Below, one piece after another: positions 1,047 to 34,694 of a stretch of DNA of 34,846 nt; the stretch's first letter is position 1; every line of letters begins with the position of its first letter. This DNA is from Anaerolineae bacterium (GTDB taxonomy: Bacteria > Chloroflexota > Anaerolineae > Aggregatilineales > Phototrophicaceae): contig JAUZRW010000236.1 of the NCBI GenBank assembly GCA_030950085.1, forward strand, positions 1 to 34,846. Reading direction: 5' to 3'. A model generated the notes under the pieces. It saw nothing but the letters and a program-made list of their open reading frames with translations, had not been told where the DNA came from and did not search any database. The position numbers and the translations under genes are program-made.

Positions 1047-4000
1047 TTATATTTTTCTCAAAAATGACGATTCACGCGCTTTTGCTGGCAGCATCGGACG
1101 TAGAATAGCCAATTCATGTTCATTTAATGGCTTGAGCGCAAAAAACACCACGAGATAAATCACACTCGCCACAATGAGCGCCAGAATCATGTTAATCTGC
1201 AAAAGCAAAAGAACGACTATACCCATCACAATCGTCGCCACAACAGGTCGCCACATAAGGTCAAGCCAATTGATATTTTGCTGTGTGCCGCGATTCATCA
1301 ACCAGAAGAAGGGAATCAGCAGCACCAATTCACTGAAAATAGTCGTGATTGCTGCCGCCTGAAAACCATATATCGGGACGAAAATGATATTCGTGATGAT
1401 GTTGAACAGCACGGCGACAACAAAGGCGCGTGTGATATAGCGTTGTAAATCAAGCGCAATCAGGGCGTATTGCGTCAAACTATTCATCCACCCTAGCGGA
1501 ATACTCCATATCATAATCGTGAGGGCAATCGCGCCATTCGGGAGATAACTTTCCCCTGCGAGAATCAATGTCAGTGGAGTCGCCAAAACAGTAAATCCGA
1601 CAGCGACAGGCAGCGATAACGCTACCATCAACTTAAGTCCGAACGCATAAGTACGCCTAAATGCTGCTTTGTCTTCGCTTGCATGCCGTGACAGCAAGGG
1701 AAAGAGTGCCTGTGTGAAAAAAGACGGAATAATGTTAATTGCCAGCAACCATTTATAGGCAGTGCTGTACTGCGCGACAACAATTGCGCCGCGTTGTGCT
1801 TGTAATATCACAATATCAATCTGGAAAAATATCGTTGCCAGAAAATGATTGAGCAGTAGGGGATAACTCTCGCTAACCATCTCGCGGATGAGTTTGAATT
1901 GTGGGCGTTTCGGTAAATCGCGGATAAAATCTTTCCCTGCCCAAACCAAGACAGCCAACGTAATGAGGTTATTGACAATACTGACTCCTGCCAAGCCGAC
2001 AATGCCCCAGCCGAGTGCCAGTACAATCACACCAAAAACGGCTTTGTTGACACTGGTAATTGTGGCAATCGCTGCCGGTTTTTCGGCTTGTTCATGGGCA
2101 TAAAACAGTGAGGTCATGCCTTTGCTGAGACTTGCCGGAAATAAGCCAAAGTACAGCAATACGAGGGCAATCAAACCCTCTTTTGGTAGCGGTTCGCCGA
2201 TATTGTTCTGCCAGAAAAAAAGAAATAGCAGCAACAGCCCGAAACCGATGAGACTCAGCAAAAAGCGTAGAAAGCTGGTATTGAAAAAGTAGTAAGCACT
2301 GCGCGATTTGTCGCGGCTGACTTCGCGTATCTGAAATAAATCGAGTCCGAAATTAGTGAAAATATCAAACCAGACGAAGACAACAATTGCAAAGTTATAG
2401 ACACCCACCATCTCCTGTGTGAGCAAGCGATAAATGACAATCGCCAGCACAAAATCTATGCCACGATTGAATAAATTCAAGATAATCGGCGCGATGCTAT
2501 TACGGGCGACTTTTGCCGATTGTGACGACTCGCCGCTATTGACTCCGACAAATATCATCCAGAGCCACATGCCAATCATTAATGTGATGACAATCGCGCT
2601 GATGGCAGTGCCGAAAAAGCCAATCTGGACACTCTGCGGACTATAAACCATCCGCACCGTCCATTCACCGACGGGCAATATCACACTCTGAAATGTGCCA
2701 AGATACTGTTCAACCTCAAGCTGCTCTTCCGCCTCATCTGTCGCTATCGGACGAATGAATGCCTTCCATCCATCCGCATAATTTTCGCTGATAACCAGCA
2801 GGGAATCGGCTTCTGTCACGCTTATATCGAAGAATTTTTCGCGTCCGCTACTAGAATAATTCGTTGGGATGATGATTTCGTCGTCTGTGGGAATGTATAC
2901 TCGTGGGAGAACAGTCAGATTTTCGTAGATGACAACTGCATCATCGCTGTAGACTTGTTCATATTGCGTATCCGGCATGTCAACATCAGCATACGTGATG
3001 ATATAGCGCACATTGAGCAAATTGAGCAAGTCAGATTGCAATACCCCCAAATAATCTGAATCGGTATAGAAGCGGTCATCTATGAAAATGGGCGCAATAC
3101 GATTGAAATCGAGTTGGACTTGTGGCGCGACTTGGCGCATGAAATCGACATACTGTGCTGGAATGATACTGTCATAACCGCGAATATCGTCTAAGCCATA
3201 TTGCATCGTGCTATTGGCATTCAGAATCGGGCGCGTATTCGGGGGTTCGACTGTGGTATAGCGAAATGCTCCCTCTTCCTCATAGCGGTCAATGAGCCAC
3301 TGTATCGAAGGGGGCGTAAAGTCTAGTAGTTGTGGGTCACTTGCTGGGTTAAATCCCCATGAAGCAATCCACAAATCGACGACGACTATTCCCACCGCAA
3401 ATAGCGGATACATTTTCCGCAGCAACAAGGCAAGTCCCCCTCCTTGATGCTTCGGGGAGGGGGGTTTAGGGGGTGGGGTTTGTGCAAGACTCGCCCATAT
3501 AAACACCATGCCAGAAAATAACAACATCAGCGCAAAAATCAGGGCATTGATAAACTGATAACTATAGAATAAGCGTGGATTACTGAAAGCCTCATTTGCT
3601 TTAGCGAGACTATTCATCATATTGATGATAGTGCTTTCCAATGACGAATAAGCAAAATACGTCACACTGAGTCCGAGCAAAATGAGTACCGCTATCCCAA
3701 CTATGCCGTAGCCGATGCGTCTTTCTAGTGCTGTTGATTTTTCTTCTGCCCGTCGAATCAGTTTATCTAAGCCAAAAGCGGCTAATAGTGCAACGCAGAT
3801 TGTCAGGGCAAATATCCAGCGAAAGGGCGAATTGAGTTGGTTGAAGCCCGGCAAGGCAAATATAATGCGATATGTCGGCATACCGAACATAAACGTTAGG
3901 CTCAGTAGACCCAATGAGGCAAATATGATGCGAACCTCACCCCCCTTTTTATCCTTCTCCTCCCTTGATGTTTCGGGGGAGGTCGGGTAGGGGTAGAGCG

Positions 4001-5108
4001 CATATAAGGCTAGTATCAAGGGCAAAATACCGAGATAAACAGCCCCTTCGACATAATTCTTCATGCCCCATTCGGTATTCGTTTTTGAACCAAAATCATT
4101 GTTCCGCATAAAGTCGAAGACATCAAAGACATCATGATGCGCCGGATTGCCATAAAAGTTCGGCATCGCAAATTGCAAGACATCGCGTGTTGGGTGGGCA
4201 TAACTCAACACTGTTTCGAGGTCAGAGCGTTCACTGCGCCAGTTGCTATTGGCAAATTCGACCAGTGGGAAAAATTGAATTGCCGCTAATCCAATACCAA
4301 GAATCACCATCGACAGCAACCATGCCGCCGTTTCTAGTGCGGCACGATGGTCACGATTACGCCACCAATCAACGAACCAGCGTATGCCTGCATAATAGCC
4401 CGTGATAATCAGCGAATACAGCGTGACTTCAACATGTCCAGCGAGAATATTCATGCCAAGTGCGGCTGCGCCAATTGCTACCCATGGAATCGCTGTTTTT
4501 CGTGCAAAAAGTTCTCTTTTGCGGATGATAAATTCTGCCATCAGCAACATTAACGGCAACCATGGCAGCGCCCCTATCATCATCTGGAAAACGACACTCG
4601 CAATCACGAATCCAGAAAATTGATAAACCACCCCAGCAAGCATCGCACCCACCCGCCCGATACCTAATCCGCGCCCGAAAAGGTACATGAACACACCTGC
4701 CAGCCACAGATTAAGCACTGTAAACCAGCCATACGCTAACCACAACGGCATCACATAATAAATGATACTGACAGGGTAGAGTGCGCTATGTTGTCCGGCG
4801 GCTAAAAACGGAATCCCACTGAATTGATGCGGATTCCACAACGGCACTTCGCCTTGTGCGATTTGTTGGCGGATGAATGCCTTCCACTGGTAATTTTCGA
4901 GGATGAGGTCAGAAACGAGATGATTGTCTGGGATGTCTGGCGCATTAACGCTTTCTCGATACGTGGCATAAGGTTCATGTTGAAATAAATTTTCCGTCGG
5001 AATCAAAGTACGTCCGCCGAGTGTTTGCTGAAAGAAGAAGGCTAACGGCAGCAAAAACAGTAGACTCACAATGATGATATCTGGTACGAAACGGCGCAAA
5101 AATCGCAT
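1047..5108 (-). CDS. YfhO-family membrane protein fused to a polysaccharide flippase
   Basis: A 1353-residue protein made of two normally separate parts. Residues 1-855 are YfhO-like: an N-terminal membrane helix, an extracytoplasmic Asp/Asn-rich loop with the signature GEVPLWNPHQFSGIPFLAAG, about a dozen further helices and a large soluble domain (about 570-830). YfhO proteins are GT-C-type enzymes proposed to add sugars to cell-wall polymers using a lipid-linked donor. Residues about 865-1353 are a full-length MOP-superfamily (Wzx-like) flippase starting KVARNSIAPIILNLFNRGID, with 12-14 helices. One chain could therefore flip a lipid-linked sugar and host its transfer; this is inference. 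The ATG has GAGGA a few bases upstream. Two GC-rich repeat insertions interrupt loops at residues about 371-391 and 542-560 without breaking the frame. Confidence 0.88.
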   Translation of the reverse strand: MRFLRRFVPDIIIVSLLFLLPLAFFFQQTLGGRTLIPTENLFQHEPYATYRESVNAPDIPDNHLVSDLILENYQWKAFIRQQIAQGEVPLWNPHQFSGIPFLAAGQHSALYPVSIIYYVMPLWLAYGWFTVLNLWLAGVFMYLFGRGLGIGRVGAMLAGVVYQFSGFVIASVVFQMMIGALPWLPLMLLMAEFIIRKRELFARKTAIPWVAIGAAALGMNILAGHVEVTLYSLIITGYYAGIRWFVDWWRNRDHRAALETAAWLLSMVILGIGLAAIQFFPLVEFANSNWRSERSDLETVLSYAHPTRDVLQFAMPNFYGNPAHHDVFDVFDFMRNNDFGSKTNTEWGMKNYVEGAVYLGILPLILALYALYPYPTSPETSREEKDKKGGEVRIIFASLGLLSLTFMFGMPTYRIIFALPGFNQLNSPFRWIFALTICVALLAAFGLDKLIRRAEEKSTALERRIGYGIVGIAVLILLGLSVTYFAYSSLESTIINMMNSLAKANEAFSNPRLFYSYQFINALIFALMLLFSGMVFIWASLAQTPPPKPPSPKHQGGGLALLLRKMYPLFAVGIVVVDLWIASWGFNPASDPQLLDFTPPSIQWLIDRYEEEGAFRYTTVEPPNTRPILNANSTMQYGLDDIRGYDSIIPAQYVDFMRQVAPQVQLDFNRIAPIFIDDRFYTDSDYLGVLQSDLLNLLNVRYIITYADVDMPDTQYEQVYSDDAVVIYENLTVLPRVYIPTDDEIIIPTNYSSSGREKFFDISVTEADSLLVISENYADGWKAFIRPIATDEAEEQLEVEQYLGTFQSVILPVGEWTVRMVYSPQSVQIGFFGTAISAIVITLMIGMWLWMIFVGVNSGESSQSAKVARNSIAPIILNLFNRGIDFVLAIVIYRLLTQEMVGVYNFAIVVFVWFDIFTNFGLDLFQIREVSRDKSRSAYYFFNTSFLRFLLSLIGFGLLLLFLFFWQNNIGEPLPKEGLIALVLLYFGLFPASLSKGMTSLFYAHEQAEKPAAIATITSVNKAVFGVIVLALGWGIVGLAGVSIVNNLITLAVLVWAGKDFIRDLPKRPQFKLIREMVSESYPLLLNHFLATIFFQIDIVILQAQRGAIVVAQYSTAYKWLLAINIIPSFFTQALFPLLSRHASEDKAAFRRTYAFGLKLMVALSLPVAVGFTVLATPLTLILAGESYLPNGAIALTIMIWSIPLGWMNSLTQYALIALDLQRYITRAFVVAVLFNIITNIIFVPIYGFQAAAITTIFSELVLLIPFFWLMNRGTQQNINWLDLMWRPVVATIVMGIVVLLLLQINMILALIVASVIYLVVFFALKPLNEHELAILRPMLPAKARESSFLRKI
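3431..3481. repeat. GC-rich repeat inside the YfhO coding sequence, copy 1
   Basis: The plus strand reads CCCCCTCC-TTGATGCTTCGG-GGAGGGGGG followed by a G-run, able to form a long hairpin. It is translated leftward as the low-complexity segment AQTPPPKPPSPKHQGGGLA in a loop between membrane helices. A sister copy with the same TTGATG(C/T)TTCGGGG core is 450 bp away at 3936-3997. Confidence 0.65.
3936..3997. repeat. GC-rich repeat inside the YfhO coding sequence, copy 2
   Basis: The plus strand carries CTCCTCCCTTGATGTTTCGG then GGGAGGTCGGGTAGGGG, matching the core of copy 1. It encodes the hydrophilic segment YPYPTSPETSREEKDKKGG between two hydrophobic segments. The frame is kept on both sides, so the repeat adds a loop of about 20 residues rather than inactivating the gene. 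Confidence 0.6.
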
Positions 5109-6419: not shown

Positions 6420-7544
6420 TTATTTACTCATCGGCATGATAACGTGTACAAAATCTTCACGATTTTCTGGACGTAGCACACCGGGATTCTCTGCCCCATT
6501 GCTCTGGAAAACCACGCGCTCTTCATTGACAACGCGCAGCACTTCAATCAAGTATTCAATATTGAAGCTAATATCCAAAGCCTCCCCTTCGACACTGGCA
6601 TCCAACATCCCGTCTAAATCACCGCGCTCGGCACTCTTACCCACAATCTGGACTTCACCGGGTTCATTGGGTCCACTCGCTGGTTTGACATATAGACGAC
6701 CACTATTGGCACTATCACGGGCAAAAATTTGGGCGCGACGGCAAGCCTTCAGCAAATCTTGGGTGTACATCGTTGTTGCTGTCACATAATTGCGTGGGAT
6801 GATAGCCGTAAAATCGGGAAAACGTCCTTCTAGCAATTGCGACGTAATATCGACATTGTTTAAGTGAAACGTGACAATATCACGGTCTTTCGGGAGCGTA
6901 ATACCGACTTCTTCATCACCTTCGATAATGCGAGCGACTTCCATCAGTGTTTTCGCTGGAATGACCATACTCATGGCATCGGGCGCAGCGTTGGAGAGTG
7001 TCCCATTGCGGACTGCCAGCCGATAGCCATCAGCCGCCGCCATCGTAATTTTCTCACCCTCTAATTCGGTGAAAACACCCGTGAGAATGGGGCGATTATC
7101 TTCTTTCGCTGCTGCAAAAGCTGTCTGATTAATCATCTCTTGCAGCACCTTGCCTTCAATGCGGATGTCTGCGCCTTCGCCGTGTGTAATCGGTGGGAAT
7201 TCTTGGGCATCAATGCCTTTGATATTGGAGTTGGTTGCGCCACAATGAATTGCTACGGAGTGCGTTTGCGCGTCTAACTGCAAATCAACCCGTTCTGGCG
7301 ATAGGTTGTTGACCAAATCAGTAAAAGTTTTCGCAGGGAGTGTAATCGCGCCGGGTTGGTCTACCTTTGCGCCAATCCACATGGTTACACTCATCTGCAA
7401 ATTAGTAGCCGCGAGTTTGAGACGGCTACCCTCTGCTTCGAGCAAAATATTGTGCAAGACGGGCAGTGAGGGGCGATTATCAACCGCTTTGCTGACTGTA
7501 CTAAGCCCTTTTTGCAGATTCTCCTGTAGAACACTAATAATCAT
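6420..7544 (-). CDS. dnaN: DNA polymerase III beta subunit (sliding clamp)
   Basis: 374 residues, the usual clamp length, with the expected three-domain character: MIISVLQENLQKGLSTVSKA at the N-terminus, SLPVLHNILLEAEGSRLKLAATN in domain 1, RPILTGVFTELEGEKITMAAADGYRLAVR in domain 2, and the typical C-terminal HVIMPMSK. The dimeric ring tethers DNA polymerase III to DNA and recruits repair and initiation-control proteins through its hydrophobic cleft. The start ATG has AAAGGA about ten bases upstream. It is not next to dnaA, which lies 25 kb away and points the other way. Its upstream region carries two TATCCCAAA motifs identical to those before dnaA, suggesting DnaA-linked control. Confidence 0.97.
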   Translation of the reverse strand: MIISVLQENLQKGLSTVSKAVDNRPSLPVLHNILLEAEGSRLKLAATNLQMSVTMWIGAKVDQPGAITLPAKTFTDLVNNLSPERVDLQLDAQTHSVAIHCGATNSNIKGIDAQEFPPITHGEGADIRIEGKVLQEMINQTAFAAAKEDNRPILTGVFTELEGEKITMAAADGYRLAVRNGTLSNAAPDAMSMVIPAKTLMEVARIIEGDEEVGITLPKDRDIVTFHLNNVDITSQLLEGRFPDFTAIIPRNYVTATTMYTQDLLKACRRAQIFARDSANSGRLYVKPASGPNEPGEVQIVGKSAERGDLDGMLDASVEGEALDISFNIEYLIEVLRVVNEERVVFQSNGAENPGVLRPENREDFVHVIMPMSK

Positions 7545-7631: not shown

Positions 7632-7660
7632 ATATCCCAAATTTGCGATAGTATCCCAAA
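7632..7660 (+). promoter_or_regulatory. Pair of putative DnaA boxes upstream of dnaN
   Basis: ATATCCCAAA (7632-7641) and GTATCCCAAA (7651-7660) lie 19 bp apart centre to centre in the 241-bp gap between surE and dnaN. They match the motif repeated five times before dnaA. Both are followed by TT. They are about 90-115 bp before the dnaN start, where initiator binding could regulate transcription. Confidence 0.55.
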
Positions 7661-32559: not shown

Positions 32560-32830
32560 GCAATATATCCCAAATTGAGTCTCGGAATCGGGTTTCTCCG
32601 GACAATTATCCCAAATTTTAAGTAGTGACTATATTCACAATCACAAATACCACGTAATATTTTATCAGAATACTTTGGGATAATTTGGGATATAACAGCA
32701 TGAAAACACCAGAATATGCGATAAATACTATTAAATCGCCTATGACTCAACTTGATTTTGTAATATTTGTTTTTTGTTACATCGGATGAAATTGAATCAA
32801 CTTATCCCAACATTAATTTTTTGAGATTCG
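32560..32830 (+). other. Putative replication origin (oriC) with variant DnaA boxes
   Basis: Five copies of a (T/A)TATCCCAA(A) motif lie in 240 bp: ATATCCCAAA 32575-32584 (+), TTATCCCAAA 32616-32625 (+), minus-strand TTATCCCAAA 32674-32683 and ATATCCCAAA 32684-32693 (adjacent), and TTATCCCAAC 32802-32811 (+). The stretch 32694-32830 is AT-rich, including TAATATTTGTTTTTTGTTAC, suited as the unwinding region. No canonical TTATCCACA was noticed. The surrounding gene-free interval 32297-33251 otherwise holds a hairpin and a -10 box. Its position beside dnaA and between divergent genes supports an origin. Confidence 0.65.
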
Positions 32831-33251: not shown

Positions 33252-34694
33252 GTGAAACCTAAAGACGCTTGGAAAGCCGCGTATAATCAACTTGAACTCC
33301 AGCTAGACCGTGCCAGTTTTGATACATGGCTGCGTCCGGCTGTGCTTTTGAGTGCGGAAAAAGGCGTTTTTGTAGTCGGTGTTCATAATACTTATGCACG
33401 GGATATGTTGCAGCATCGCTTATATCGTAATATCTGGCGACTCTTGACTGATTTAACAGGTCAGGATGTGGAAATAAAGTTTGAAATCCACAAAGCCGAA
33501 ACACCTTCTACATCACAAGATGATAGTGATTCTGATGCGCCGCCTATGTTTCGCTTCTTGGCGATGAAATCACGCACGCCTGATTTACCAGAAACATCAG
33601 CAGTATCAACATCTCATGAAACTGCCTCGTCATCTCTGTATGATTATGTGCAAGCGCCGCAACGTGCAGACCTGCCCGAATCTGAATTGAACGCGCGTTT
33701 TACATTTGACCGCTTTATGGTGCAATCCAATCAAGTGGTGTATGAAGCGGCGCTGTCAGTTGCCGAACATACGGCTAGTCTCTATAACCCCTTTTTGATT
33801 TACGGAGGCGTTGGACTAGGGAAAACTCATCTCCTGCAAGCCATCGCTCATGTGTGCCAGCAAAAAGGCTTAAATACAGTTTATATCCCATCGGAAGTTT
33901 TCACCAACGACCTGATTTCTGCTATCCGCGAGCGTTCTACTGCGATGTTCCGTGATAAGTATCGCACGGCGGATGTTTTACTGGTTGATGATATTCAATT
34001 TATTGGCGGCAAAGAAAGCACGCAAGAAGAATTTTTCCATACCTTTAATGCCCTCGTGAATTTTAATAAGCAAATTGTCCTCGCTAGTGACCGTCATCCC
34101 AGTGAATTAAAAACATTGGAAGACCGTTTGCGTTCGCGTTTTCAGGGTGGTTTAGTCGCCGATATTCAACCCCCTTCATTTGAGACTCGTATCGCAATCA
34201 TGAAGATGTGGTCAGAGGAGCGTGGTATTCGCTTGCCGTATAGTGTGTTGGAGATGGTATCGAATCGAGTGCCAAAAAATGTGCGCGAATTGGAAGGGGC
34301 GTTTAATCAAGTTGTGGCGCAAACCCAATTTGGGCGACAAAATATGTCCTTGCCGAGTGTCGAATCGACTCTGAATCGCTATAACAGTCGGCGTGAGCGA
34401 GTCTCTATGGATGATATTATCGCTGTCACTGCCCAAAATTTCGGATTCACCAGTGCTGACCTCCGCAGCAAAAAACGCACTGCCCGCATTAGTAAAGCCC
34501 GTCAAATTGCGATGTACCTGTGCCGCGAATTGACAGAATTTTCTTTACCCCAAGTCGGTGCTGCATTCGGTGGACGTAGCCATACCACTGTACTGCACGG
34601 TACGAAAAAAATCACCGAAGAACTAGAATTTGATAGGGTACTAGAAGCCCGTATCCTCAAAATCCGTAAAAAGATTGTCACTGCACCCTGTTAA
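33252..34694 (+). CDS. dnaA: Chromosomal replication initiator protein DnaA
   Basis: 480 residues from a GTG at 33252; AAGGAAAG lies 12-19 bases upstream, a long spacing, and the TTG at 33183 would add residues outside the fold. Domain I is about 1-80 (DAWKAAYNQLELQLDRASFD), domain II a Ser/Asp-rich linker to about 145. Domain III (AAA+) has Walker A GGVGLGKTH at about 185-193 and Walker B VLLVDDIQF at about 242-250. Domain IV has the DNA-reading helix AAFGGRSHTTVLHG near 437-450. The usual GGRDHTTV is GGRSHTTV here, with Ser443 in place of Asp. ATP-bound DnaA opens the origin. The adjacent TATCCCAAA boxes are likely targets. Confidence 0.97.
   Translation: MKPKDAWKAAYNQLELQLDRASFDTWLRPAVLLSAEKGVFVVGVHNTYARDMLQHRLYRNIWRLLTDLTGQDVEIKFEIHKAETPSTSQDDSDSDAPPMFRFLAMKSRTPDLPETSAVSTSHETASSSLYDYVQAPQRADLPESELNARFTFDRFMVQSNQVVYEAALSVAEHTASLYNPFLIYGGVGLGKTHLLQAIAHVCQQKGLNTVYIPSEVFTNDLISAIRERSTAMFRDKYRTADVLLVDDIQFIGGKESTQEEFFHTFNALVNFNKQIVLASDRHPSELKTLEDRLRSRFQGGLVADIQPPSFETRIAIMKMWSEERGIRLPYSVLEMVSNRVPKNVRELEGAFNQVVAQTQFGRQNMSLPSVESTLNRYNSRRERVSMDDIIAVTAQNFGFTSADLRSKKRTARISKARQIAMYLCRELTEFSLPQVGAAFGGRSHTTVLHGTKKITEELEFDRVLEARILKIRKKIVTAPC

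Follow-up and report, generated by a model that had tools for sequence, protein, structure and literature searches.

A conserved TATCCCAA site and a DnaA lacking Asp433 are probably two separate features of a family of Anaerolineae

DnaA usually regulates its own gene, and clusters of DnaA boxes also exist outside oriC, datA being one of them. A DnaA box is described in PMC4285127 as a site with at most two mismatches to TTATCCACA, and the E. coli consensus can be written TTWTNCACA, with C at position 6. Base 7 of the box is reported to be contacted by Asp433 of DnaA (PMC8235120, PMC7561715), part of a 433-434 dyad that PMC5043019 calls highly conservative. C at position 7 is reported for ATP-DnaA boxes, as in E. 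coli and H. pylori, and also, in PMC4285127, for the W-boxes of Caulobacter (TCCCCA); these sites are described as weak oriC sites. Furthermore, some lineages are reported to have origin boxes of their own, such as Epsilonproteobacteria (TTCAC core) and Thermotoga maritima (ACCTACCAC), with domain IV residues that differ from those of E. coli (PMC5043019, among other sources). Our literature search with the word TTATCCCAA gave no title on DnaA among the matches listed, and searches on DnaA of Chloroflexi or Anaerolineae and on divergent or non-canonical boxes gave nothing on TATCCCAA among the titles and abstract starts of the matches listed.

The DNA analysed here is a stretch of 34.8 kb (34,846 nucleotides, hereafter the window) that forms one whole contig of an Anaerolineae assembly of 5.09 Mb and 266 contigs. 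The genome belongs to a family that we call f1, and f2, f3, f6, f7 and f8 are among its sister families. A preliminary description had seen in the window a repeated word, common to the upstream regions of dnaA and dnaN, and a DnaA with an altered recognition helix, and had proposed that box and reader co-evolved. The features in question are the following:

6420 to 7544, minus strand: dnaN coding sequence
7632 to 7640, plus strand: TATCCCAA site before dnaN, ATATCCCAA
7651 to 7659, plus strand: TATCCCAA site before dnaN, GTATCCCAA
32565 to 32573, plus strand: TATCCCAA site 1 before dnaA, ATATCCCAA
32606 to 32614, plus strand: TATCCCAA site 2 before dnaA, TTATCCCAA
32675 to 32683, minus strand: TATCCCAA site 3 before dnaA, TTATCCCAA, 10 bp from site 4
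32685 to 32693, minus strand: TATCCCAA site 4 before dnaA, ATATCCCAA
32802 to 32810, plus strand: TATCCCAA site 5 before dnaA, TTATCCCAA, the likely counterpart of the gene-proximal TATCCCAACC box of relatives
33252 to 34694, plus strand: dnaA coding sequence (TIGR00362), inferred to start at a GTG
34578 to 34580, plus strand: codon of Ser443, in the place of E. coli Asp433, counted from the GTG start at 33252

TATCCCAA occurs 11 times as an exact word in the window, compared with a mean of 1.26 in shuffled sequences (maximum 5; none of 100 shuffles reached 11). An exact-word search places seven of these copies in two intergenic regions, as first described: five before dnaA (32566+, 32607+, 32675-, 32685- and 32803+) and two before dnaN (7633+ and 7652+). 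The interval originally given for the five dnaA-side boxes, 32575-32811, leaves out the first of them (32565-32573), and the matches elsewhere are indeed isolated, although they number four (3693+, 9133+, 17368- and 20223-) and not the two that had been named. The canonical box TTATCCACA is absent from the window as an exact word, and its 13 one-mismatch matches are near chance (shuffle mean 9.55; 10 of 100 shuffles reach 13). Genome-wide, single copies of TATCCCAA are about twice as numerous as its reversed-word control (315 versus 137), and the excess of the canonical word in the same genome is similar (98 versus 39). As both words exceed their reversed controls alike, we rejected genome-wide single-motif counts as evidence: the signal lies in the clustering and not in abundance. 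Two further clusters of four sites were seen in this genome (L032:5015-5055 and L033:499-538), before or at the starts of genes that look by eye lipoprotein-like and secreted-protein-like and are not replication genes; similar non-coding stretches in the same loci (L032:5395-5490 and L033:170-260; ctctgcgtctctgattctc...) suggest, also by eye, a dispersed repeat. The window additionally encodes, at 1047-5108, a membrane protein of 1353 residues that by eye looks like two fused membrane proteins.

The protein with the altered helix is DnaA, as judged from its full-length match to TIGR00362 (465 bits, cut-off 343.9). Alignment of its domain IV to E. coli 1j1v places Ser443, numbered from the GTG start at 33252, opposite Asp433, and the substitution had thus been read correctly. 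Recognition helices parsed by profile alignment (dnaA was readable in 38 of 41 relatives, including 22 of the 25 genomes of f1) show that Asp is found in none of the 22 f1 proteins, which have Ser (11), Thr (4), Lys (3), Ala (2) or Arg (2) instead, and the helix is hence altered in every f1 protein read. Among 16 proteins from sister families of the order the residue is Asp in eight, Asn in seven and His in one, and it is Asp in all 30 class members from outside the order, 24 of which were picked for carrying TATCCCAA pairs. In 80 DnaA loci from many phyla we found Asp in 76, His in three and Ser in one; this last protein (L042, 'Anaerolineae bacterium isolate Bin_50_3') is the closest DnaA among the named records found. 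These alignments establish that the DnaA of f1 has lost its base-reading Asp433.

Upstream of dnaA, TATCCCAA was found in 20 of the 22 f1 loci (62 copies, shuffle mean 0.5), where a de novo search returned it as the 8-mer found in most loci, and in none of 16 sister-family loci. The 300 bp that precede dnaN contain it in 11 of 22 f1 loci and in none of eight sister loci, so that the sharing of one motif by both upstream regions extends, less widely for dnaN, to the family. Five f1 genomes, including that of the window, have it before gyrA; since the gyrA loci (L195-L198) were picked by look-alike paired-site sequences, five is not a rate, and the identity of gyrA comes from a Pfam run on three of the five. 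Tandem pairs, that is, two TATCCCAA sites separated by 0-30 bp, are present in 23 of 25 f1 genomes, which contain 143 pairs where the reversed pattern gives 3. Of the 16 sister genomes, 3 contain such pairs (8 in all, control 1), with none in the 10 genomes of f2, f3, f7 and f8, all of which have DnaA. Canonical pairs (TATCCACA) are at control level in f1 (3 pairs in 3 of 25 genomes, control 4) but exceed it in the sister families, where 9 of 16 genomes carry 15 of them (control 4). Another word, CAACCTTAAAA, directly adjoins the site nearest to dnaA in many f1 loci (L007, L010, L025 and L028 in our set of f1 and sister loci, for example) and in some of them is part of an inverted repeat, AACCTTAAAA...TTTTAAGGTT; similar words are also seen in sister families that lack TATCCCAA before dnaA.

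The co-evolution model holds that the change from Asp433 to Ser switched DnaA from TTATCCACA to TTATCCCAA. In its favour, base 7, the reported contact of Asp433, differs between the two words, and canonical pairs do not exceed controls in f1. However, the same motif is arrayed in genomes that retain Asp433. Indeed, TATCCCAA pairs are present in 106 of 199 class genomes (the reversed control matches in 5 of 199), 99 of them among the 189 from outside the order, and all 24 pair-bearing class genomes whose DnaA was read have Asp433. Within f1, moreover, the motif stays constant while residue 433 ranges over Ser, Thr, Ala, Lys and Arg, and the likely origin boxes of the family (described below) keep A7-C8-A9 and vary at positions 5-6. 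If TATCCCAA is a DnaA box, it is one that does not change with the base-reading residue, its core being the same with and without Asp433. In G029, a member of sister family f6 whose DnaA has Asp, we observed four tandem TTATCCCAA at steps of 10-11 bp (L185:2280-2319).

As the TATCCCAA core was fixed by the selection of loci, the informative parts of the sites are their flanks and variants. The flanks of clustered sites are similar in f1 (207 sites) and in Asp433-type class and sister loci (98 sites), with W before and mostly A after (mostly W-TATCCCAA-A); the same one-base changes (A3>T, T4>A and C6>G/A) are tolerated in f1 and class sets, and variants at position 7 are few in all three sets (1, 4 and 3). 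Position 9 differs: it shows 15 variants, mostly A9>C, in the f1 origin loci (n=16, shuffle mean 1.4) and 6 upstream of f1 dnaA (shuffle mean 1.1), versus none in the TATCCCAA arrays of the class (shuffle mean 1.0). This difference could reflect a changed reader and it lowers our confidence, so we consider it quite likely, and not more, that the TATCCCAA box and residue 433 did not co-evolve. The co-evolution model is already largely refuted, and the switch from TTATCCACA to TTATCCCAA that it supposes is highly improbable. At the level of sequence, the comparison demonstrates a conserved site that is arrayed in many families of the class, and the two oddities of the window, the TATCCCAA repeats and the loss of Asp433, are probably separate.

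We then considered where the f1 origin lies. The preliminary description had itself held that an origin placed elsewhere by GC skew would count against it, and cumulative skew over 400 kb in two relatives (G008:C12 and G009:C28) indeed has no minimum at dnaA, which led us to reject an origin at dnaA in both. In a 383-kb stretch of G008:C9 the minimum is at 675,681, inside a GAF/histidine-kinase-related gene (675,285-676,523), with three TATCCCAA sites at 674,849-675,213, about 0.5-0.8 kb away. The kinase-gene locus was found via G005, in which 12 TATCCCAA occupy some 570 bp upstream of the corresponding gene; this interval (L265:1660-2340 on G005:C4), where ten TTWTGAACA and two TTWTGCACA join the 12 TATCCCAA in less than 700 bp, is the best-looking candidate for an f1 origin. 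Upstream of the kinase gene in 20 f1 loci there are 62 TATCCCAA (in 17 of 20; shuffle 0.9) and 145 TTWTNNACA (in 17 of 20; shuffle 11.3), and dnaN is just upstream of the gene in six genomes (G012, G019, G020, G021, G023 and G024). The kinase locus of G030 (sister family f7) is without a clear skew minimum. In the window's own genome neither the kinase locus nor the stretch downstream of dnaN has an array, and a pair search with TTTTGMACA/TTWTGMACA gave one isolated match and located no origin. Since a skew minimum placed the origin in one genome only, the position of oriC rests on one profile together with the repeat architecture; we judge it rather probable that oriC is not at dnaA in f1. 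In coarse samples of G008:C7 (L222-L241), GC skew is mostly positive over the first 2 Mb or so and negative beyond roughly 2.2 Mb, a change that may mark the terminus.

The TTWTNNACA boxes were also recovered de novo, as TTTTGAACA, upstream of the kinase gene in 12 of 20 f1 loci (57 copies). Their same-strand spacings, analysed in 16 of the 20 loci with gaps up to 34 bp counted, are mostly 10-12, 20-23 and 31-34 bp, as is typical of DnaA arrays, and together with the skew minimum near one locus they describe a helically phased array at the likely oriC. The constancy of the ACA end belongs to the search pattern and is not a measurement; the informative positions are 5 and 6. One doublet dominates at these positions in most f1 genomes (GA in most, CT in G012, CG in G013 and GC in G007), doublets are mixed in G008, G009, G023 and G024, and CC is the commonest in none of 14. 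Of 106 clustered boxes from these 14 f1 genomes, 17 have C at position 6, so the arrays depart from the E. coli consensus; the corresponding figures are 33 of 35 for 12 Asp433 loci of the class, 5 of 6 for two sister loci with Asp and 2 of 4 for two sister loci with Asn. The count covers 14 of the 20 f1 kinase loci (three lack an array, one is cut by a contig end and two lack a full dnaA); boxes within a genome are non-independent, and those of f1 come from the kinase locus, the others from dnaA. By these proportions, the loss of Asp433 tracks altered origin boxes, and not TATCCCAA. Residue 433 was rejected as a predictor of the exact doublet, since doublets vary by genome without following the exact residue and only Asp versus not-Asp separates them. 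In a broad set of 80 loci, C6 was found in 65% of 336 clustered matches from Asp loci, a lower figure that we think is due to chance matches of a loose pattern in AT-rich genomes; it weakens any universal association of Asp with C6 and leaves a clean contrast only inside the class.

Of the 30 Asp433 class genomes, 11 have TTATCCACA or TTTTCCACA (TTWTCCACA) immediately downstream of dnaA at steps of 20-22 bp, presumably the ancestral origin. TATCCCAA occurs there once in all 30 genomes taken together, and before dnaA once each in two; ten of the 11 array-bearing genomes have their TATCCCAA pairs on other contigs among the matches listed, and the eleventh has none among them. At similar distances after dnaA, sister family f3 (Asn433) has TTATCCACA, TTATCGACA, TTATCAACA and TTATGCACA, which vary at positions 5-6. 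The likely origin boxes of f1 are TTWTNNACA, with mostly GA at positions 5-6, and those of its Asp-bearing class relatives are TTWTCCACA. Like the divergent-box lineages named above, f1 would combine lineage-specific origin boxes with a domain IV that differs from that of E. coli; according to PMC5043019, however, the Epsilonproteobacteria retain the 433-434 dyad and differ at 435 and 438-439, whereas f1 has lost 433 and its boxes differ at 5-6. These arrays could conceivably be read by another initiator, TATCCCAA being the sole DnaA box in f1, and the doublets that vary by genome without tracking the exact residue 433 are compatible with this. Nevertheless, the arrays keep T1 T2 W3 T4 and A7 C8 A9 of the DnaA consensus on a lattice of 11, 21 and 32 bp and seem to correspond to the TTATCCACA arrays found in Asp433 genomes, which makes another initiator extremely unlikely.

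Whether DnaA also reads TATCCCAA is a more balanced matter. The word could be a DnaA box of the C7 type, akin to ATP-DnaA boxes and W-boxes, through which DnaA would autoregulate dnaA, dnaN and gyrA and bind around oriC while reading TTWTNNACA as well, with titration-type arrays in the Asp433 lineages. It matches TTATCCACA at 7 of 9 positions (TTATCC and A9), is likewise an asymmetric 9-mer with sites at near-helical steps, and in f1 clusters before dnaA and at the likely origin, though downstream of dnaA in the 30 Asp433 class genomes just one copy is present; C7 has its reported precedents, and the tolerance at position 9 differs between f1 and Asp433 loci. In three sister loci with Asp433 (L184, L187 and L190), TTATCCCAA and TTATCCACA are 20-22 bp apart and share an orientation, as in one DnaA lattice, and all seven TTWTNNACA-TATCCCAA combinations within 45 bp are same-orientated; because L184 and L190 have a common neighbour gene, these amount to two independent cases. 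Yet the sites have C7 A8 in place of A7 C8, and although TTATCCCAA, which differs at positions 7 and 8 as originally described, stays within two mismatches of the canonical box, the equally common ATATCCCAA differs at three. The core is common to lineages with and without Asp433, T4>A is tolerated and C5 and C7 are nearly fixed, unlike in DnaA boxes and in the varying f1 origin boxes, of which TTTTGAACA, for instance, matches only four of nine positions of TTATCCCAA; the 10 genomes of f2, f3, f7 and f8 have DnaA but no pairs. Contrary to the reported ATP-DnaA boxes and W-boxes, moreover, the sites conserve eight bases and are arrayed at promoters. The arrays of the Asp433 class resemble datA in lying apparently away from the origin, but their motif is TATCCCAA and they adjoin one conserved gene in 11 of 20 loci. 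A DnaA box of this type is a serious possibility that falls somewhat short of an even chance.

The product of the gene in question is about 457 residues long, carries AlbA_2 and HATPase_c_4 domains (Pfam, three copies; no NCBIfam match) and has a well conserved C-terminus that by eye is winged-helix-like. A TATCCCAA array follows the stop codon of the gene by 17-415 bp in 11 of 20 class loci (L389-L407) that had been picked for carrying such arrays; this arrangement recurs in six families of the class, and gyrA is near in four of the 11. Close copies (E <=1e-120) are found in 30 of 41 relatives, and TATCCCAA pairs in 25 of the 30 genomes with a close copy versus 1 of the 11 without (Fisher p 2.5e-5, ignoring phylogeny); outside f1 the figures are 3 of 6 versus 0 of 10 (p 0.036). 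This co-occurrence is confounded by phylogeny, and among the matches listed the gene does not adjoin the pairs of f1. Its adjacency to the arrays makes the AlbA_2/HATPase_c_4 protein the leading candidate for a reader of TATCCCAA.

The nearly constant C5 and C7, the tolerated T4>A, the absence of pairs from f2, f3, f7 and f8, and the adjacency and co-occurrence of gene and arrays lead us to favour, by a small margin, a separate reader over DnaA for TATCCCAA. Two features are superimposed in the window, a class-wide TATCCCAA site and a DnaA without Asp433, and the first description probably joined them wrongly. The comparison shows that f1 has gathered TATCCCAA before dnaA, dnaN and gyrA and around the likely origin. 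Under the reading that we favour as a whole, with about even confidence, a protein other than DnaA would read the word there, set the transcription of the replication genes and sit beside the origin, while the Ser443 DnaA would initiate at relaxed TTWTNNACA boxes located in another part of the chromosome; that the reader of TATCCCAA is not DnaA stands in equal balance. A fuller version, in which TATCCCAA would be the operator of an undescribed class-wide replication-control protein acting on dnaA, dnaN, gyrA and oriC, with the AlbA_2/HATPase_c_4 protein as candidate, and the Asp433-less DnaA would read relaxed TTWTNNACA, is tentative and clearly short of probable.

A whole family without Asp433, whose likely origin boxes differ beside the bases that this residue is thought to read, is a natural experiment on the evolution of initiator specificity. 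The case is also a caution: the word repeated most often upstream of dnaA is not necessarily a DnaA box, nor is dnaA necessarily a marker of the origin. Should TATCCCAA indeed have a reader of its own, that protein would be a new regulator that links dnaA, dnaN, gyrA and oriC.
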